Of a DNA stretch of 64,000 bases, positions 3,441 to 30,212 are shown in pieces. Positions within the stretch are counted from its first letter, which is position 1; the number at the start of each line of letters is the position of its first letter. This DNA is from Clostridiales bacterium (GTDB taxonomy: Bacteria > Bacillota > Clostridia > Oscillospirales > Acutalibacteraceae): NCBI GenBank assembly GCA_024684435.1, contig JAIKWV010000037.1:1-64000 (forward strand), in the 5' to 3' direction. The notes under the pieces are model-generated. The model saw nothing but the letters and a program-made list of their open reading frames with translations, had not been told where the DNA came from and made no database searches. The translations under genes and the position numbers were made by a program.

Positions 3441-3478
3441 AATCACACCTGATGTAAAAAGTCGGGTGTGATTTTTTA
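3441..3478 (+). terminator. Rho-independent terminator after rodA
   Basis: AATCACACC (3441-3449) pairs exactly with GGTGTGATT (3465-3473) across a 15-base loop and runs into a T tract. Confidence 0.85.
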
Positions 3479-4240: not shown

Positions 4241-4270
4241 TTGACAAGTATGACCTTAATGTGCTATATT
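4241..4270 (+). promoter_or_regulatory. Sigma-A promoter of the aromatic amino acid operon
   Basis: Perfect TTGACA at 4241-4246 and TATATT at 4265-4270 with an 18-base spacer. Transcription should start near 4277, about 30 bases before the leader peptide. Confidence 0.8.
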
Positions 4271-4309
4271 GACCTAAATAAATGTACAGTAAGTCACGGA
4301 GACAAACAG

Positions 4310-4417
4310 ATGAAGTTTAATTTGTTCACAACAGCATATTATTACTTTATCAACCTTGCCGGCTATTATCTCGGCAGGGTCTATAGTGTATTTGCTGTGA
4401 ACAGAGCTTTATCATGA
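4310..4417 (+). CDS. Tyr/Phe-rich leader peptide of the aromatic operon attenuator
   Basis: A 35-codon ORF: ATG 4310, stop TGA 4415-4417, with GGAG at 4298-4301 spaced 8 bases. The peptide begins MKFNLFTTAYYYFINLAG and continues YYLGRVYSVF. Six Tyr and four Phe make up 10 of 35 residues, with a YYYF run (codons 10-13) and a YY pair (19-20). This matches a sensing leader peptide whose translation slows when charged tRNA-Tyr or tRNA-Phe is scarce. It sits between a strong promoter and a terminator and ends 102 bases before aroF. The alternative, a small functional membrane peptide, is less likely because its coding sequence overlaps exactly the RNA segments that form the attenuator hairpins. 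Attenuation itself is inferred. Confidence 0.82.
   Translation: MKFNLFTTAYYYFINLAGYYLGRVYSVFAVNRALS
4353..4380 (+). promoter_or_regulatory. Hairpin P1 within the leader peptide, Tyr codons in its loop
   Basis: ACCTTGCCG (4353-4361) pairs with CGGCAGGGT (4372-4380), one G-U pair included. The 10-base loop contains the tandem Tyr codons TAT TAT (4364-4369). It could act as an RNA polymerase pause hairpin that synchronises the first ribosome with transcription. Confidence 0.6.
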
Positions 4418-4451
4418 TCTTATTTTTGTCGGTTTGAGCTCCGCAGTAAAT
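4390..4451 (+). promoter_or_regulatory. Predicted antiterminator of the aromatic attenuator
   Basis: Bases 4390-4399 (ATTTGCTGTG) pair with 4442-4451 (CGCAGTAAAT), G-U pairs included, and GAGCT (4404-4408) pairs with AGCTC (4437-4441). This gives two stacked stems separated by a 4-base bulge. The right arm contains the whole 5' arm of the terminator, so the structures exclude each other. A ribosome at the leader stop (4415) would cover the left arm and favour termination. One stalled at the early Tyr/Phe codons leaves it free. Confidence 0.68.
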
Positions 4452-4475
4452 TTGCTGCGGAGTTATTATTTTATT
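4437..4475 (+). terminator. Attenuator terminator upstream of aroF
   Basis: CTCCGCAG (4439-4446) pairs perfectly with CTGCGGAG (4455-4462) over an 8-base loop, extended by A4437-T4464, followed by a T-rich tail (TTATTATTTTATTT). It lies after the leader peptide and before aroF. Confidence 0.8.
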
Positions 4476-4519
4476 TGCTGTACATTTTTTAGTTGATATG
4501 ATCGAAGGGAGAAAAATAT

Positions 4520-5524
4520 ATGATAGTCTTACTGAAAGAAAACTACAAGGAAGAACAGCTTGAAAATTTAAGAGCCTGGCTTAAAAGCATGTCAGTTGAC
4601 GTTAAAATGTCAAAGGGCAGCCATCAGACGATACTCGGTCTTGTCGGAGATACCTCACAGGTGGACTCCGAGCTGATCCTTGCTTTGGACTTCGTAGAGG
4701 ATGTAAAACGCGTTCAGGAGCCATACAAGAAGGCGAACAGGAAATTCCATCCGGAGGACACCGTGATCGACGTAAACGGGGTAAAAGTCGGCGGAGGCAA
4801 TTTCTCGATAATAGCGGGTCCCTGCTCCGTAGAATCCGAACAACAGCTCTGCACCATAGCGGAGAGCGTAAAGAAATCAGGCGCAACTATGCTCAGAGGC
4901 GGAGCCTTCAAGCCCAGAACATCACCATACGCTTTCCAGGGCATGAGGGGAGAAGGTATCAAACTGCTTCTTAAAGCTAAGGAGCTTACGGGTTTACCCA
5001 TTGTTACCGAGATAATGGATCTGTCTCAACTCGATTTATTTGACGATGTGGACGTTATCCAGGTGGGCGCGAGAAATATGCAGAACTTTGAGCTGCTTAA
5101 GGCTCTGGGCAAAACGGACAAGCCCATACTTCTTAAGAGGGGATTATCGGCAACCATCCAGGAATGGCTGATGAGCGCTGAATACATAATGTCAGGCGGA
5201 AACGATAAGATAATCCTCTGCGAAAGAGGCATAAGGACTTTTGAAACTGCCACAAGGAACACCCTTGACCTTTCCGCTGTACCTGTAATCAAGTCCCTTT
5301 CACATCTGCCTGTCATAGTTGATCCCAGTCATGCTACGGGCTTTTCAAGATATGTAAGACCCATGGCTGTAGCGGCGGCGGCGGTAGGCGCGGACGGACT
5401 TATAATCGAAGTGCACAACGATCCGCCCCATGCTCTCTGTGACGGCGCGCAGTCCCTTACGCCAAAGGATTTTGATGAGCTTGTAAAAGACGTTATGGAT
5501 ATACGCAAGGTAGTTGCGAAGTAA
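4520..5524 (+). CDS. aroF: 3-deoxy-7-phosphoheptulonate (DAHP) synthase, type I-beta with N-terminal regulatory domain
   Basis: 334 aa. Condenses phosphoenolpyruvate and erythrose 4-phosphate to DAHP, the entry step of the shikimate pathway. Residues 1-65 form the ferredoxin-like/ACT-type domain seen in Thermotoga-type DAHP synthases, where it gives feedback inhibition by Tyr or Phe. The barrel follows with IIAGPCSVES (metal and PEP site), RGGAFKPRTSPYAFQG, TEIMD, VGARNMQNFELL, LLKRG and VDPSHATG. Start ATG with AAGGGAG at 4505-4511, spaced 8 bases. First gene of the operon, directly behind the Tyr/Phe leader attenuator, so it should be controlled both by attenuation and by feedback through its N-terminal domain. 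Confidence 0.95.
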   Translation: MIVLLKENYKEEQLENLRAWLKSMSVDVKMSKGSHQTILGLVGDTSQVDSELILALDFVEDVKRVQEPYKKANRKFHPEDTVIDVNGVKVGGGNFSIIAGPCSVESEQQLCTIAESVKKSGATMLRGGAFKPRTSPYAFQGMRGEGIKLLLKAKELTGLPIVTEIMDLSQLDLFDDVDVIQVGARNMQNFELLKALGKTDKPILLKRGLSATIQEWLMSAEYIMSGGNDKIILCERGIRTFETATRNTLDLSAVPVIKSLSHLPVIVDPSHATGFSRYVRPMAVAAAAVGADGLIIEVHNDPPHALCDGAQSLTPKDFDELVKDVMDIRKVVAK

Positions 5525-5543
5525 TTGTTCGGAGGTATAGGAA

Positions 5544-6374
5544 ATGAATATAGGGATAATAGGTTTAGGTCTTATCGGCGGCTCCATGGCAAGAGCCATA
5601 AAACACAATACGCCTCACAAAGTATACGGACGCGATATAAACACATCTGTTGTTCTCAAAGCAAAGCTTCTTGACGCCATTGACGGCGAACTGACTGAAG
5701 ATAATTTAGGAGACTGCGATCTGGTCATAGTGGCTTTATATCCCAAGGACACTGTGGACTTCATAATATCCCACAAGGATAAGTTCAAAGAAGGCGCCAT
5801 CGTTATCGACTGCTGCGGCGTAAAGGCAAGCGTCTGCAAACCATTGTTCGAAATGGTCAATGACTGTAAATTTACCTTTATCGGCGTTCATCCCATGGCG
5901 GGTATGGAATTTTCCGGCTTTGACCACTCAACTACCGCAATGTTTGAAAACGCTTCTGCTATAGTCACTCCCGGTCCCGATGTAGATATTGAAAAGGTTC
6001 GTATACTCAAGGAGCTTTTTGATCAGATCGGTTTCAATCATATGCAGGTCTCGGATTACGAAGAACATGACAAGGTCATAGCCTGTACATCACAGCTGGC
6101 GCACATCGTATCAAGCGCGTATGTAAAAAGTCCTACCGCTTCCATGTACAAGGGCTTTTCTGCGGGCAGTTTCAAGGATATGACAAGGGTCGCCTGGCTC
6201 AACGAGAAAATGTGGACAGAGCTGTTCTTTGAAAACAGAGAAAATCTTATAAATGAGATCGACGGTCTTGTTGATCGTTTGATCGAGTACAGTGAAGCAT
6301 TGAAAAACAACGATGAGGATAAGCTTTATAATCTGCTTTCGGAAGGCAGAATTATCAAGGAATCTCTGAGCTGA
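5544..6374 (+). CDS. tyrA: Prephenate dehydrogenase
   Basis: 276 aa. Oxidatively decarboxylates prephenate to 4-hydroxyphenylpyruvate with NAD(P)+, the Tyr branch. An N-terminal Rossmann fold begins MNIGIIGLGLIGGSMARAI (GxGxxG). The TyrA signature GVHPMAGMEFSGFDHS lies near residue 115, and the catalytic-region CTSQLAHIVSSAY near residue 180. The protein stops after the helical domain, so it lacks the C-terminal ACT domain that makes many Firmicutes TyrA proteins feedback sensitive. Control may therefore rest on AroF and the attenuator. GGAGG at 5531-5535 precedes the ATG, 19 bases after aroF. Confidence 0.93.
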   Translation: MNIGIIGLGLIGGSMARAIKHNTPHKVYGRDINTSVVLKAKLLDAIDGELTEDNLGDCDLVIVALYPKDTVDFIISHKDKFKEGAIVIDCCGVKASVCKPLFEMVNDCKFTFIGVHPMAGMEFSGFDHSTTAMFENASAIVTPGPDVDIEKVRILKELFDQIGFNHMQVSDYEEHDKVIACTSQLAHIVSSAYVKSPTASMYKGFSAGSFKDMTRVAWLNEKMWTELFFENRENLINEIDGLVDRLIEYSEALKNNDEDKLYNLLSEGRIIKESLS

Positions 6375-6384
6375 GGGTGATCGT

Positions 6385-7431
6385 ATGATTTCAATTGGTG
6401 TTGATACTAAACAGAGAGCCTATGACGTGCTTATCGGCAGCGGTTCGGTCAAGGATTTCGGCAGGCTTATTTCAGAGGTCAAAAAGCCCTGCAAAGTTAT
6501 GATAGTAACCGACGATATCGTAAACGGTCTGTATGCCGACAAGGTCACTGAAGCCATTGAAAAATCAGGCTTTACCGTAAGCAGATTCGTCTTTGAAAAC
6601 GGCGAAAGATCAAAGAATATCACAACCTACGCGAACATACTTGAAAGACTCGCGCAGGAACATTTTACCCGTACGGATCTGATAGTTGCTCTCGGCGGAG
6701 GCGTTGTGGGCGACGTTTCCGGCTTTGCCGCGGCGACCTACCTGAGAGGCATTGATTTTGTTCAGCTGCCGACCACATTGCTTGCGGTCGTTGACTCCTC
6801 AGTAGGCGGCAAAACAGGAATTGATCTTATCGCCGGCAAAAATCTTGCGGGAGCATTCTGGCAGCCTGTACGGGTCATTTGCGACACCGATTTTCTTTCC
6901 ACACTTCCCGATGAGAGAAAGGCAGACGGTATTGCGGAGATCATAAAATACGGCGTTATATGCAGTAAACCTCTCTTTGATATCTTCGCCTCAGGCAGGT
7001 TTGAGGAAAAGCTTGACGAATGTATAGCAGAGTGCGTAAAGATAAAAAGCGACGTCGTTTCAAGAGACGAATTTGATACCGGTGAACGCAGACTGCTTAA
7101 TCTGGGACACACCTTCGGTCATGCCATTGAAAAGGCAAGCGGTATGACCATAACCCACGGATACGCGGTGGCGATAGGCACGGTCATAGCCGCGAAAACC
7201 GCCGAAAATATAGGCATATCCTGCCCCTGCAGTCAGGATATAATTGACGCTCTCAAGAAATACGGTCTCCCGGTAAGCTGTGATTACAACAAGGAAACAA
7301 TTATAAATTATGCCCTTACGGACAAAAAACGCACCGGCGTAGACATCGCTTTGATATTGCCTGAAAAAATAGGCAAGTGTATCATTTATCCGATCCCGAT
7401 CGAAAAGCTTAACGATATTGTAAAGCTATAA
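6385..7431 (+). CDS. aroB: 3-dehydroquinate synthase
   Basis: 348 aa, normal length. Converts DAHP to 3-dehydroquinate, second shikimate step, using NAD+ and a divalent metal. Seen: ALGGGVVGDVSGFAAATYLR (NAD and phosphate binding), QLPTTLLAVVDSSVGGKTGI, and the metal ligands in ADGIAEIIKYG (Glu), NLGHTFGHAIE (His) and THGYAVAIG (His). The start ATG follows GAGGGTGAT, 10 bases after tyrA, so it belongs to the same transcript. Confidence 0.96.
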   Translation: MISIGVDTKQRAYDVLIGSGSVKDFGRLISEVKKPCKVMIVTDDIVNGLYADKVTEAIEKSGFTVSRFVFENGERSKNITTYANILERLAQEHFTRTDLIVALGGGVVGDVSGFAAATYLRGIDFVQLPTTLLAVVDSSVGGKTGIDLIAGKNLAGAFWQPVRVICDTDFLSTLPDERKADGIAEIIKYGVICSKPLFDIFASGRFEEKLDECIAECVKIKSDVVSRDEFDTGERRLLNLGHTFGHAIEKASGMTITHGYAVAIGTVIAAKTAENIGISCPCSQDIIDALKKYGLPVSCDYNKETIINYALTDKKRTGVDIALILPEKIGKCIIYPIPIEKLNDIVKL

Positions 7432-7453
7432 GCCTTGACAGTAGGTGTTTGTT

Positions 7454-8728
7454 GTGAATTACGACATTGAAATAACTCCCGGAACCCTGAAAGGTACTGT
7501 TCCCTCCATAACCTCCAAATCAGATCTCCACAGAATACTTATCTGCGCGGCTTTGGCGGACAGGGAAACAAAAATATATGTAAACCGCGGAATATCCGAT
7601 GATATAACCGCAACCACTGAATGTCTGAATGCTTTGGGGGCGGATATCCGCATCGGCGGAGACGTTATAATCGTAAAGCCCATATCCGATAAACGGCAGG
7701 ACGCGCATCTCAACTGCCGTGAAAGCGGTTCTACTTTGCGGTTTCTTCTGCCTGTCGCCTCGGTCGCGGCTGACTGCTTCACCGTGACAGGTGAGGGCAG
7801 ACTGCCCGAAAGACCCCTTGACACACTTATGGATGTTATGGAATCCCACGGCTGTGAGTTCAGCTCCAGGAAACTTCCGCTGTCTTCAAAAGGTGTTCTC
7901 ACACCGGGCACTTATTCGCTCAGAGGGGACGTAAGCTCTCAGTATATTTCCGGACTGCTCTTTGCCTTGCCGTTACTTGACGGTGACAGCGAGATAGTTT
8001 TAACGTCACAGCTGCAATCAAAAAGATATGTTGACATGACAACAAGTACCCTGGCTCGGTTCGGGGTAAAAATAGCGATTACCAACTACGGATATTTCAT
8101 TGAAGGCGGTCAGAAATATGTTTCACCCACCGAAATCAAAGCGGAAGGGGATTGGTCAAATTCCGCATTCTGGCTCTGTGCCGGCGCCCTGGGAAATCAA
8201 TTTTCATGCACCGGTCTTGATATGGATTCAAATCAGGGAGACATGAAAATTTTGCAGATCCTTTTTGATATGGGCGCTGATATCAACTGTACGGGTAATT
8301 CAGTGACTGTAAAGCATAAGCCTTTACACTCTGTTGAAGTAAGCGTATCGGACATACCAGATCTGGTTCCTGTTCTTGCGGTGGTCATGTCTGTCGCCGA
8401 AGGCAGATCGGTCATAAAAGACGCCGGCAGGCTCAGACTCAAGGAAAGCGACAGACTCCATTCTGTCACAAGTTCTCTCAATGCCATAGGAGCGAAAATA
8501 ACGGAATGTGCGGACGGACTTGAGATAGTCGGGGTCAAGAAGCTGGCAGGCGGGATCGCCGACAGTTTCAACGACCACCGTATAGCAATGGCTCTGGCTG
8601 TGGCGTCCACCGTCTGTGAAAACAAGCTCACCGTCACAAACGCTCAGGCGGTAAAAAAATCTTATCCTGAATTTTTCGAGGATTTCAACAAATCGGGAGG
8701 TAAGGCTCATGTCATCTCAAACAGGTAA
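7454..8728 (+). CDS. aroA: 3-phosphoshikimate 1-carboxyvinyltransferase (EPSP synthase)
   Basis: 424 aa from a GTG at 7454. AGGTG at 7443-7447 fits this GTG (6-base spacing) but not the in-frame GTG at 7445. Transfers the enolpyruvyl group of PEP to shikimate 3-phosphate. Two inverse alpha/beta domains; motifs seen are SKSDLHRILICAALA (SKS variant of the N-terminal substrate loop), ESGSTLRFLLPVAS, GEGRLPERPLDTLMD, RLRLKESDRLHSV and FNDHRIAMALAVA. The PEP-binding loop reads ESGSTLRF, unlike the NAGTAMRP of class I enzymes. This is common in Firmicutes and can go with altered glyphosate sensitivity, which I only infer. It overlaps aroC by 20 bases. Confidence 0.95.
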   Translation: MNYDIEITPGTLKGTVPSITSKSDLHRILICAALADRETKIYVNRGISDDITATTECLNALGADIRIGGDVIIVKPISDKRQDAHLNCRESGSTLRFLLPVASVAADCFTVTGEGRLPERPLDTLMDVMESHGCEFSSRKLPLSSKGVLTPGTYSLRGDVSSQYISGLLFALPLLDGDSEIVLTSQLQSKRYVDMTTSTLARFGVKIAITNYGYFIEGGQKYVSPTEIKAEGDWSNSAFWLCAGALGNQFSCTGLDMDSNQGDMKILQILFDMGADINCTGNSVTVKHKPLHSVEVSVSDIPDLVPVLAVVMSVAEGRSVIKDAGRLRLKESDRLHSVTSSLNAIGAKITECADGLEIVGVKKLAGGIADSFNDHRIAMALAVASTVCENKLTVTNAQAVKKSYPEFFEDFNKSGGKAHVISNR

Positions 8729-9806
8729 AATCCTTAAAGTTTCTGTTTTCGGTCAATCACATTCCGAATGTATAGGAGCTGTTATTGACGGTATACCCGC
8801 CGGTGAAGCAGTGGATACAGATAAAATTTTAACCTTTATGAAACGCCGCTCCCCGGGCAATAACAGCTGGTCAACGGGGCGTAAAGAGGCCGATATTCCA
8901 AGGATCGTTTCAGGCGTTGTGGACGGCGTTACCTGCGGTTCTCCCATAACTGTCATAATTGAAAACAAGGATACACGATCTTCAGACTATGATGATCTTA
9001 AATATATCCCCAGACCGTCACATTCCGATTACCCCGCCTTTATCAAATACGGTGAAGCCCATGACATAAGGGGAGGGGGACACTTCTCCGGCAGACTTAC
9101 GGCGCCCCTGTGCTTCGCCGGCGCCCTCTGTATGCAGATATTGGAACGTATGGGCATAAACATAGGCGCCCACATATCATCTGTAGGCTCGGTGGATGAT
9201 ACTGCTTTTGACAATGTAGATCTTAATATTGATGAGCTAAAATCAGCCGCCAAAAAACAGTTTCCGGCTATTGACGACACTGCGGCGGATAAGATGATAG
9301 AGCTTATCGAAAACGCAAGGGAAAAGGGCGATTCTGTAGGCGGTACGGTTGAATGCGGTGTGCTGGGTGTTCCCGCAGGAATAGGTGAACCCATGTTTGA
9401 CGGAATTGAAAACAGGCTGGCAGCCGCTCTGTTTGGTATCCCTGCTGTAAAGGGAATTGAATTCGGCATGGGATTTGAAAGCGGCAGGCTTTACGGGTCC
9501 GAAAACAACGACGGTTACTACTTTGACGGTGAAAAGGTAAAGACCTTTACAAATAACAGTGGCGGTATTGCAGGGGGAATAAGTACGGGAATGCCCTTGA
9601 TCTTCAGGCTTGCATTCAAACCTACGCCCTCAATAGCTTTGCCGCAAAGATCCGTTGATCTGAGGACAATGAAAAATACAGAGCTTATTATTCACGGCAG
9701 ACACGATCCCTGCATCGTGCCACGGGCAGTGCCCTGTGTTGAGGCTGTGACCGCCATAACATTGCTTGATTTAATTTATGAGGATAAGAAATATGGACAT
9801 TGCTGA
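8709..9806 (+). CDS. aroC: Chorismate synthase
   Basis: 365 aa. Makes chorismate from EPSP with reduced FMN. Signatures: FGQSHSECIGAVIDGIPAG (active-site His), RRSPGNNSWSTGRKEAD, RPSHSDYPAFIKYG, RGGGHFSGRLTAPL and the C-terminal HDPCIVPRAVPCVEA. The ATG lies inside the end of aroA (20-base overlap) with GGGAGG at 8696-8701, so translation is probably coupled. No reductase domain is fused, so FMN reduction depends on another protein. Confidence 0.96.
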   Translation: MSSQTGKILKVSVFGQSHSECIGAVIDGIPAGEAVDTDKILTFMKRRSPGNNSWSTGRKEADIPRIVSGVVDGVTCGSPITVIIENKDTRSSDYDDLKYIPRPSHSDYPAFIKYGEAHDIRGGGHFSGRLTAPLCFAGALCMQILERMGINIGAHISSVGSVDDTAFDNVDLNIDELKSAAKKQFPAIDDTAADKMIELIENAREKGDSVGGTVECGVLGVPAGIGEPMFDGIENRLAAALFGIPAVKGIEFGMGFESGRLYGSENNDGYYFDGEKVKTFTNNSGGIAGGISTGMPLIFRLAFKPTPSIALPQRSVDLRTMKNTELIIHGRHDPCIVPRAVPCVEAVTAITLLDLIYEDKKYGHC

Positions 9807-10932
9807 ACTCAGAAAAGAAATAGATAAAACCGACGATGAAATAGTAAAGCTCTTTGAAAAGCGGATGAATACTGTTCTGGAGATAGCAAAATATAAAGTG
9901 CGCACCGGTATGAAAGTGCTGGATAACAGCCGTGAAAAGGATATTCTGAACAGGGTATCAAAAGAAGTGCCGGAAGATATGGCTGAATATGTAAAAACCC
10001 TTTTTTCGACATTGTTCAGTTTAAGCAGATCATACCAACGGTCTTATATCAATAAAGAAACTAAACTTTCACAGCAGATAGAAACAGCCCTTAAAAATAC
10101 AGGAAACGAACTTCCGCAGTCGGCAAGGGTGGCCTGTCAGGGCGTACCAGGAGCTTATTCCCAGATTGCCTGCGGCAGGATATTCAACTCTCCCAATATA
10201 GAATATTTCAAGGGCTTCAGAAATGTTTTTGAGGCTGTTGAAAAGGGGATATGCGACTACGGTATCCTGCCCATTGAAAACAGCTTATACGGCTCTGTGG
10301 TAAATGTTTACGACCTTATGCGTGAATATAAATTCAGTATCGTAAGCAGCACAAAGATCAGGGTGGATCACTGTCTTTTGACCAGCATTGGAACGGATCT
10401 GAAAGATATCAAAGAGATATTTTCCCATGAACAGGCGATAGGGCAGTGCGGCAGATTTATAGACTCACTCGGTGACATTAAGATCACGGTCTGCGAAAAC
10501 ACCGCCGTCGCCGCAAAACTTGTTGCAGACAGCAAACGTTTAGATGCGGCGGCGATATCCTCAGCTGAATGCGCCGACATTTACGGCTTGAACCTGCTGA
10601 AAAAAGGTATACAGAACGCGGACAACAATTACACTAAATTTATCTGTATTTCAAAAGACACAGAAATTTATCCCGGCGCGGACAACATAAGCTTTATGAT
10701 GACCCTTCCCCACAGACCCGGCTCTCTGTTTGAGATCATGTCTGATTTCGCGGCTCTCGGACTTAACCTGACCAAGCTTGAAAGCAGACCGATAGTGGGC
10801 AGTGATTTTGAGTTCATGTTTTACTTTGTTCTTGAAGCTTCGGTAATTTCAAAAGATGTTGTATCGTTGCTCAATGACTTGAATTCAAGATCCGGACAGT
10901 TCGTTTTCCTGGGAAATTATACTGAAAAATAA
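9793..10932 (+). CDS. pheA: Bifunctional chorismate mutase / prephenate dehydratase (P-protein)
   Basis: 379 aa. The ATG at 9793 is preferred over 9778 because GAGGA (9780-9784) is correctly spaced from it; it overlaps the end of aroC by 14 bases. Residues about 1-85 are an AroQ-type chorismate mutase (LRKEIDKTDDEIVKLFEKR). Residues about 105-290 are prephenate dehydratase, with the GVPGAYSQIA start, the ILPIENSLYGSVVNVYDL loop and the catalytic-region NNYTKF. Residues about 295-379 are an ACT domain with HRPGSLFEIM and LESRP, the Phe-binding residues that normally give feedback inhibition. It carries chorismate to phenylpyruvate. Because this mutase also supplies prephenate to TyrA, it serves both branches of the operon. 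Confidence 0.95.
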   Translation: MDIAELRKEIDKTDDEIVKLFEKRMNTVLEIAKYKVRTGMKVLDNSREKDILNRVSKEVPEDMAEYVKTLFSTLFSLSRSYQRSYINKETKLSQQIETALKNTGNELPQSARVACQGVPGAYSQIACGRIFNSPNIEYFKGFRNVFEAVEKGICDYGILPIENSLYGSVVNVYDLMREYKFSIVSSTKIRVDHCLLTSIGTDLKDIKEIFSHEQAIGQCGRFIDSLGDIKITVCENTAVAAKLVADSKRLDAAAISSAECADIYGLNLLKKGIQNADNNYTKFICISKDTEIYPGADNISFMMTLPHRPGSLFEIMSDFAALGLNLTKLESRPIVGSDFEFMFYFVLEASVISKDVVSLLNDLNSRSGQFVFLGNYTEK

Positions 10933-10954
10933 TAAGATTACGGGGGTAGTGCTG

Positions 10955-12184
10955 TTGGAATATGGTTTGATAGGCGAAAGCCTTAAGCACAGCTACTCAA
11001 AAGAGATACACAACAAGCTCAGCGACTACGATTACCGCATAATCAATCTGAGTAAGGATGAGTTTGACGGCTTTATCGGTGAACATGATTTCAAAGGCAT
11101 AAACGTGACCATACCCTATAAGATCAGAGTTATGCCTTTTTGCGCCACGCTTTCAGAAAGAGCAAAACGGGTTGGCAGCGTCAATACCGTTACCGTAGAC
11201 TCAACAGGTAAACTCCACGGCTACAATACGGATTACGGCGGATTTGTTTACATGGCAGAACGTGCCGGAATATCATTTGAGAACAAAAACGTGGTCATTC
11301 TGGGTAGTGGAGGCACATCCCTTACCGCTCAGGCGGTTACTGAGGATCACGGCGCAAAAAACACCGTGGTCGTATCAAGGACAGGCAAATATAATTACGG
11401 TAACATTTCCAAGCTTTATGATTACGATATCATAATCAATACCACCCCGGTGGGTATGTATCCGAAAAACGGTGAAAACCTTATAGACCTGACGAAATTC
11501 GTCAACTGCTGCGGAGTTATCGACGTTATCTACAATCCTCTTTATACGGCGCTTTTACAGTCCGCTCAGCGCATGAATATTCCCTGTACAAACGGTCTTT
11601 CAATGCTTGTGGCTCAGGCAAAATTTGCCCGGGAGATTTTTACGGGCATTGAGACTGATGACAGCGAGATCGAGCGGGTATATAAGGAAATGACAAATGA
11701 ATTTTCAAATATTGTTCTCGTGGGTATGCCGGGCAGCGGAAAGACCACAGTGGGAAAGATGCTTGCAAAAAAAATGAACAGACGTTTTGCGGATATGGAC
11801 GCATATATAGAAGAAAAATGCGGCATGACGATACCGGATATATTTGCAAAACACGGAGAAGATTATTTCCGGGACGCCGAGTCCGAGGCGGCGGCTCAGC
11901 TTGGCAAAGAGCACGGTCTTGTCATAGCCACCGGTGGAGGAGCAGTGATAAGAGAAATAAACAAAAACTCCCTGCGTCAGAACGGAAAAACCGTTTGGTT
12001 AAAGCGCGATATTGAAAGGCTGAGCATGAACGGCAGACCTCTTTCCAAAGACATTGAAGCGGTCAGAAAATTATTCTGCGAACGTGAAAAGTATTACTCA
12101 CAATTCAGCGATATCTGCGTTGACAACAATGGAAAATCACCGGATATCGCGGTAAAAAAGATATTGGAGGAAATACAAATATGA
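10955..12184 (+). CDS. aroEK: Bifunctional shikimate dehydrogenase / shikimate kinase fusion
   Basis: 409 aa. GGGGG at 10942-10946 is 8 bases from a TTG at 10955 and almost touches the in-frame GTG at 10949, so TTG is the likely start. Residues about 1-245 are AroE: GLIGESLKHSYSKEIHNKL (shikimate site), FKGINVTIPYK, GYNTDYGGF, VVILGSGGTSLTAQAV (NADP site) and DVIYNPLYTALLQ. Residues about 250-409 are AroK: VGMPGSGKTTVGKMLAKK (Walker A), ADMDAYIEEK, EDYFRDAESEAAAQL, ATGGGAV and MNGRPLSKD. One chain therefore performs dehydroshikimate to shikimate to shikimate 3-phosphate. No frameshift separates the halves. It overlaps aroQ by ATGA. Confidence 0.93.
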   Translation: MEYGLIGESLKHSYSKEIHNKLSDYDYRIINLSKDEFDGFIGEHDFKGINVTIPYKIRVMPFCATLSERAKRVGSVNTVTVDSTGKLHGYNTDYGGFVYMAERAGISFENKNVVILGSGGTSLTAQAVTEDHGAKNTVVVSRTGKYNYGNISKLYDYDIIINTTPVGMYPKNGENLIDLTKFVNCCGVIDVIYNPLYTALLQSAQRMNIPCTNGLSMLVAQAKFAREIFTGIETDDSEIERVYKEMTNEFSNIVLVGMPGSGKTTVGKMLAKKMNRRFADMDAYIEEKCGMTIPDIFAKHGEDYFRDAESEAAAQLGKEHGLVIATGGGAVIREINKNSLRQNGKTVWLKRDIERLSMNGRPLSKDIEAVRKLFCEREKYYSQFSDICVDNNGKSPDIAVKKILEEIQI

Positions 12185-12606
12185 CTTTGTATATAATCAA
12201 CGGTCCAAACATAAATATGCTCGGTATAAGGGAACCTGAGATCTACGGCTCAAAGACTTATGCTGATCTTGTGAATTTTATCAAAACCGTGTGCATGGAA
12301 AATGAAGTGGAATGCGATATATTCCAATCGAACAGCGAAGGGGATATAGTCACTAAAATACAGCAGGCCTACGGTCACGCCGACGGCATAATCATCAATC
12401 CCGCGGCATATACGCATACAAGCGTGGCAATACTTGACGCATTGAAGGCGGTGGGTCTGCCTGCGGTGGAGGTACATATATCCGATGTGGATTCAAGGGA
12501 GGATTTCAGGCAGATATCCTATGCAGGTATGGCCTGCGAAAAGAGATTTTCAGGTCTGGGATTTGAAGGGTACCGTCAGGCTGTTCTCTACTTAATCAAC
12601 AAATAA
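12181..12606 (+). CDS. aroQ: Type II 3-dehydroquinate dehydratase
   Basis: 141 aa, typical for the type II enzyme that forms dodecamers and makes 3-dehydroshikimate. Motifs: INGPNINMLGIREPEIYG (the flexible lid and catalytic Tyr region), DIFQSNSEGDIVTKIQQA, IINPAAYTHTSVAILDAL (catalytic His region), VEVHISDVDSREDFRQ and FSGLGFEGY. Start ATG overlaps the stop of aroEK by 4 bases, with GGAGG just upstream. It is the last gene of the operon, so all seven steps from PEP and erythrose 4-phosphate to chorismate are encoded together. No convincing terminator follows. Confidence 0.95.
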   Translation: MTLYIINGPNINMLGIREPEIYGSKTYADLVNFIKTVCMENEVECDIFQSNSEGDIVTKIQQAYGHADGIIINPAAYTHTSVAILDALKAVGLPAVEVHISDVDSREDFRQISYAGMACEKRFSGLGFEGYRQAVLYLINK

Positions 12607-30004: not shown

Positions 30005-30048
30005 GTTTTACATATAAACGGGCAAATACCCGATCATACTCATTAAAA

Positions 30049-30212
30049 TCTCCGTCCTTTTGCCTGAGAGATTGACAGCGTTCACCGTCTTGCACCTTCG
30101 GCATCCTTTCGGACTTCTCCGGAGTGCCATCTAAGATCAGTACCCGCCGGATATCCGGCACCTGAGAGTGTTACTCCTTCGGTCGCGTCGCCGCATCTCC
30201 TGACCTCGTCAT
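30049..30212 (-). promoter_or_regulatory. Tandem glycine riboswitch (gcvT type) upstream of the AGCS transporter
   Basis: Read on the minus strand, the first aptamer runs from AGGAGATGCGGCG through GACCGAAGGAGTAA and ACTCTCAGG. The second runs from CTCCGGAGAAG through GATGCCGAAGGTGCAA and AATCTCTCAGGCAAAAGGAC, ending CGGAG. These are the conserved cores of the glycine riboswitch, in the usual tandem order. The expression platform is the terminator at 29974-30004. Direction of control is not shown by sequence. For an uptake transporter, reduced expression in high glycine is the simpler guess, but glycine-activated export or catabolism is also known. Confidence 0.92.

Follow-up and report, generated by a model that had tools for sequence, protein, structure and literature searches.

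How is a complete aromatic amino acid operon controlled when a short Tyr/Phe-rich open reading frame and a terminator stand between its promoter and its first gene? The question is raised by positions 4241-4520 of the window (the whole 64,000-nucleotide stretch of Clostridiales DNA analysed here), where a strong promoter is followed by a Shine-Dalgarno (SD) sequence, a leader ORF, an intrinsic terminator and aroF. A preliminary description of this DNA had proposed a leader-peptide attenuator, and we have analysed its parts, their conservation in related genomes and their folding with the ribosome at different positions.

The aroF operon and the parts of its leader

The promoter (TTGACA at 4241-4246, TATATT at 4265-4270, 18-base spacing) has 11/12 matches, and the transcript presumably starts near 4277. 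The aroF gene heads a complete shikimate/tyrA/pheA operon, with all eight pathway genes on the same strand. The features of the leader and operon are the following (G002 is a genome of the same genus).

4241..4270, + strand: sigma-70-type promoter, TTGACA-N18-TATATT with extended -10 TG (from the sequence; kept in G002)
4298..4301, + strand: SD GGAG of the leader ORF, 8 bases before the ATG at 4310 (from the sequence; kept in G002)
4310..4417, + strand: ORF of the leader peptide, 35 codons (6 Tyr, 4 Phe), ending in TGA at 4415-4417 (peptide conserved in G002)
4322..4336, + strand: region 1, putative anti-antiterminator, pairs with region 2 (MFE fold; cognate-swap test across relatives)
4337..4348, + strand: candidate sensing codons TAT TAT TAC TTT, Tyr-Tyr-Tyr-Phe (from the sequence; identical in G002)
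4353..4380, + strand: predicted 10-bp hairpin within the leader ORF, two Tyr codons in its loop (MFE fold)
4389..4410, + strand: region 2, 5' arm of the antiterminator, overlapped by the footprint of a ribosome at the leader stop (pairing search; swap test)
4436..4452, + strand: region 3, 5' arm and loop of the terminator and antiterminator partner of region 2 (pairing, swap test, covariation)
4437..4474, + strand: intrinsic terminator (regions 3:4) plus T-rich tail (independent scan)
4520..5524, + strand: aroF, DAHP synthase, first gene of the operon (NCBIfam PRK08673, above cut-off)
5544..6374, + strand: tyrA, prephenate dehydrogenase (NCBIfam search, as for all genes below)
6385..7431, + strand: aroB, 3-dehydroquinate synthase
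7445..8728, + strand: aroA, EPSP synthase
8709..9806, + strand: aroC, chorismate synthase
9778..10932, + strand: pheA, chorismate mutase / prephenate dehydratase
10949..12184, + strand: aroE-aroK fusion, shikimate dehydrogenase and shikimate kinase
12181..12606, + strand: aroQ, type II 3-dehydroquinate dehydratase

The coordinates assigned to the promoter, ORF and terminator by the preliminary description held on re-check, the terminator being found by an independent scan as a hairpin at 4437-4464 that ends 55 bases ahead of aroF; the complete operon with tyrA and pheA, which had been placed behind the leader, was identified as eight genes at 4520-12606. A second strong terminator-like hairpin (13 pairs) was detected elsewhere in the window at 3441-3473, downstream of the 2215-3426 gene.

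The leader ORF encodes MKFNLFTTAYYYFINLAGYYLGRVYSVFAVNRALS, in which 10/35 residues are aromatic. With its SD, and kept in the same-genus genome, the Tyr/Phe-rich ORF described earlier between promoter and aroF can be accepted as real; it is translatable and carries a cluster of end-product codons, as expected for a ribosome-mediated attenuator. In the window alone the codons are not extreme, five Tyr/Phe within 10 codons being present in ~10% of shuffled AT-rich upstream regions. Because a single-site codon cluster is only moderately unusual, the comparison with relatives is decisive, and the support for an attenuator comes from structure plus conservation rather than from the codons of a single site.

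The folding z-score of 4277-4520 was -6.9, with zero shuffles as stable. A search blind to its position recovered the antiterminator that had been suggested to exclude the terminator, region 2 pairing with the terminator 5' arm at -17.7 kcal/mol; 2% of shuffles were equally good, and the predicted antiterminator of the window, taken alone, is only modestly unusual. Two elements overlooked by the preliminary description are region 1, TTGTTCACAACAGCA, located directly before the Tyr-Tyr-Tyr-Phe run, and the hairpin at 4353-4380, possibly a pause hairpin. The terminator lies between the ORF and aroF, pairing 2:3 and pairing 3:4 are mutually exclusive, region 1 can pair with region 2, and region 2 is located at the leader stop codon, so the modelled pairings 1:2, 2:3 and 3:4 correspond to the anatomy of a classical ribosome-mediated attenuator.

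Sequence AAATGTACAGTAAGT at the 5' end of the transcript (4282-4296) is complementary to ATTTGCTGTACATTT (4474-4491), a stretch beyond the terminator with further T behind it. The resulting helix is present in the MFE fold and is conserved on both sides in G002; possibly it acts as a second terminator that closes off the leader as a whole. As a general feature across relatives this pairing is weak (z -3.2).

Conservation and coevolution among relatives

The aroF upstream regions (131 distinct) were collected from whole genomes of the order and from contigs of named genomes; many of these relatives are metagenome-assembled, so that mis-binning may lie behind their names and a few phylum labels (Treponema, Victivallales). 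At least six Tyr/Phe within 10 codons were detected in 74% of the 131 regions versus 2.1% of shuffles, while the reverse strand gave 1/131 and most control residue pairs were far lower. About one quarter of the aroF copies, often solitary ones, had no recognisable leader in this score-threshold search, by which some leaders may be missed or misplaced, and this fraction counts against the attenuator reading. Leader-bearing loci with long flanks have pheA downstream in 35/40 cases and aroC in 38/40. A terminator was found behind the leader in 106/110 leaders by the later finder, a stricter finder having missed 46/110, mostly plain by eye.

Within the genus (G002), conservation extends over the promoter, the SD, the peptide and every pairing region. 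Many further families of the class carry a Tyr/Phe leader, present at 42/67 class loci at a strict threshold, and Tyr/Phe leaders with terminators before aroF were detected in other classes of the phylum as well, among best-matching aroF copies that are no random sample. The preliminary description had named a lack of leader ORF conservation in relatives as an observation that would speak against its proposal; the ORF was found in most of the order and in other orders and classes. By sequence comparison, the same switch appears to be present in the majority of the Clostridia relatives studied. A broader proposal has in our estimation an even chance of being correct: Tyr/Phe attenuation at the aroF operon would be an ancestral regulatory family that extends through the phylum, in Clostridia and neighbouring groups, has gone largely unreported, and controls this pathway independently of the T-boxes of the same genomes.

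Clostridial-type aroF genes with a Tyr/Phe leader were also observed in contigs labelled Treponemataceae, Victivallales, Kiritimatiellae and Lentisphaerae (L095, L070, L080, L039), reflecting either mis-binning of these contigs or a horizontal transfer in which the operon took its attenuator along.

The average leader in the relatives contains 4.0 Tyr, 5.7 Phe and 0.2 Trp. At least two Tyr and at least two Phe are present in 86/93 leaders, with Trp almost absent, which suggests that dual sensing is general and that Trp is apparently unread; the joint Tyr and Phe sensing proposed earlier for the one leader is in agreement with these counts.

In the swap test, the pairing of every region 2 with its own terminator arm was compared with its pairing to the arms of 92 non-redundant relatives. 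The own partner in pairing 2:3 was better (-17.8 vs -12.6 kcal/mol swapped, z -17.6), and the same was observed for pairing 1:2 on non-overlapping segments (z -11.2), while the control pairing 1:3, which is unpredicted by the model, had no cognate preference (z -0.3). An independent set of loci, outside the order but within the class, gave z -12.5 for 2:3, z -6.9 for 1:2 and z -0.9 for the 1:3 control. According to base-level covariation with crude anchors, 0/500 shuffles reached the observed pairing and slid registers were far worse. Region 2 is centred at the stop-codon ribosome footprint in 63/93 leaders versus 34% of shuffles. The hairpin exclusivity described for the window is thus kept in relatives, both 2:3 and 1:2 coevolving, with replication outside the order.

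These data bear on two other explanations of the ORF. It could encode a small functional protein, for instance a membrane peptide, that the terminator merely separates from aroF, and the peptide is indeed hydrophobic and conserved within the genus; however, beyond its Tyr/Phe content the peptide sequence is unconserved across relatives and has no NCBIfam match, and the ORF keeps a fixed position ahead of aroF and of a terminator whose RNA pairings coevolve, leaving this explanation extremely unlikely. Alternatively, the nascent peptide itself could arrest the ribosome in the style of TnaC or ErmCL, with the same RNA switch downstream. We consider such arrest improbable: in its favour, a motif such as FYFSAGYxFCK is common to the leaders of several other clostridial families, but Tyr and Phe are freely interchanged between leaders, which suits codon counting over a fixed arrest sequence, the non-aromatic residues vary within the order studied, and some of them are located in RNA-pairing segments (in the window, FTTA in region 1 and FAVN in region 2).

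The FYFSAGYxFCK-like motif was observed in L182, L183, L189, L195, L196, L201, L207 and L208, where it is more conserved than the Tyr/Phe content requires; it could be explained by RNA pairing or by a nascent-peptide effect.

Ribosome position and the proposed mechanism

For the attenuator reading, masked folding was performed on a transcript ending just short of the terminator 3' arm, with a ribosome placed at the Tyr/Phe run or at the stop codon. Antiterminator pairing was 0.67 with the ribosome stalled at Tyr/Phe, 0.40 at the stop and 0.46 ribosome-free, and in shuffled leaders it was 0.51 stalled and 0.48 at the stop. The corresponding values for the window were 0.86 stalled, 0.27 at the stop and 0.37 ribosome-free, in line with the earlier suggestion that a ribosome at the stop codon would cover the antiterminator left arm and that stalling at the early codons would free it. 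Folded at equilibrium, the full-length transcript gave no distinction between the ribosome states, and only the co-transcriptional version told them apart. Since the completed terminator wins at equilibrium in every state, the regulation must be kinetic; kinetic control is assumed for the classical attenuators.

Taken together, the leader is very probably a ribosome-mediated transcription attenuator sensing Tyr and Phe together. This reading of sequences and folding models is based on the parts of the leader and how they are conserved, on two coevolving pairings, on a region 2 that lies at the stop, and on codons for Tyr and Phe but not Trp; ribosome stalling, its dependence on tRNA charging and the actual termination are what we infer from it. 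The ribosome would load on the leader ORF once it is transcribed. When charged tRNA-Tyr or tRNA-Phe is scarce, it would stall at 4337-4348 and mask region 1, leaving region 2 to pair with the emerging region 3; the terminator would then not form, and transcription would proceed into aroF and the rest of the pathway. With both charged tRNAs ample, the ribosome would reach the stop at 4415 and cover region 2, pairing 3:4 would form, and transcription would halt before aroF. If the leader were untranslated, regions 1 and 2 would pair and the terminator would form as well.

T-boxes and known attenuation systems

The window leader, scanned with Rfam at gathering and permissive thresholds, gave only chance matches below the cut-off; no Rfam family, T-box (RF00230) included, was detected at the 31 related aroF loci scanned, and no T-box was found at the leader-less aroF loci. 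The absence of a T-box at this leader, which the preliminary description had noted, is thus supported, but its statement that T-boxes or TRAP are the usual control of clostridial aromatic operons does not agree with our aroF survey, in which leader peptides are the common arrangement. Elsewhere in the window, a glycine riboswitch aptamer (RF00504, 54 bits) was detected at 30042-30132 on the - strand.

The same genome (G000) has six matches to the Rfam T-box model, four of them above the Rfam cut-off, in front of genes that, from their translations, we take to be the following.

L031, C8:16142: pheS
L032, C30:19734: leuA-like gene
L033, C3:85192: XRE regulator with AMP-ligase
L034, C33:75388: thrS
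L035, C10:24365: TrpX-like ABC solute-binding protein
L036, C9:33086: aspS

The XRE regulator with AMP-ligase is an unusual T-box neighbour. T-boxes are available in the same genome but unused at aroF. Control of the operon by a T-box or by a Tyr/Phe-binding riboswitch would be in keeping with these T-boxes, including the one before pheS, but with no Rfam family in the window leader or at the 31 related loci we give it hardly any probability. The T-boxes of pheS and the amino acid genes resemble the proposed attenuator in sensing tRNA charging and controlling a terminator, and differ from it in that they bind tRNA directly, have no leader ORF and are absent at aroF. The aroF leaders offer a ready comparative set for the question why, in one genome, Phe would be sensed via a T-box at pheS but via the ribosome at aroF.

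The enterobacterial leaders trpL, pheL, hisL, thrL and ilvL combine a leader peptide with codons for the product, three alternating hairpins and a terminator. The clostridial leader is similar in its product-residue codons, alternating hairpins, terminator before the first gene and the predicted position of the stop-codon ribosome over region 2, whereas it would sense Tyr and Phe jointly and govern the whole shikimate pathway, and the enterobacterial systems belong to Proteobacteria. No sequence relation to the enterobacterial leaders was found, and no Rfam leader family was matched.

The uORFC-13-1 motif, a short Phe-codon ORF with a terminator upstream of Acholeplasma aroF, was proposed to act by attenuation; its 24 examples are only from Acholeplasma and environmental sequences, and only Phe is mentioned (PMC8632094). 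Compared by description, both systems have a Phe-coding short ORF and a terminator upstream of aroF, while the clostridial leader has both Tyr and Phe and a class-wide spread. Leader-peptide attenuators of his genes were proposed in place of T-boxes in a few species of Firmicutes, including Peptostreptococcaceae (PMC9413887), and hisS/hisZ leader attenuators were proposed in Firmicutes (PMC2965389); these likewise have a leader peptide replacing a T-box, but they belong to histidine genes, with no aromatic operon. No prior report of a Tyr/Phe leader in Clostridia was found in the open-access literature, subscription journals being outside the scope of the search; the Acholeplasma aroF motif was the one related report.

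Ribosome-mediated attenuation, familiar from E. coli, is probably the normal control of the aromatic pathway in many gut and anaerobic bacteria that are commonly regarded as T-box users, and the leader specificity (Tyr, Phe or both) would be readable straight from the codons. The proposed mechanism is that of textbook trp, phe and his attenuation and its logic is not new; the points of interest are its breadth and the dual sensing.
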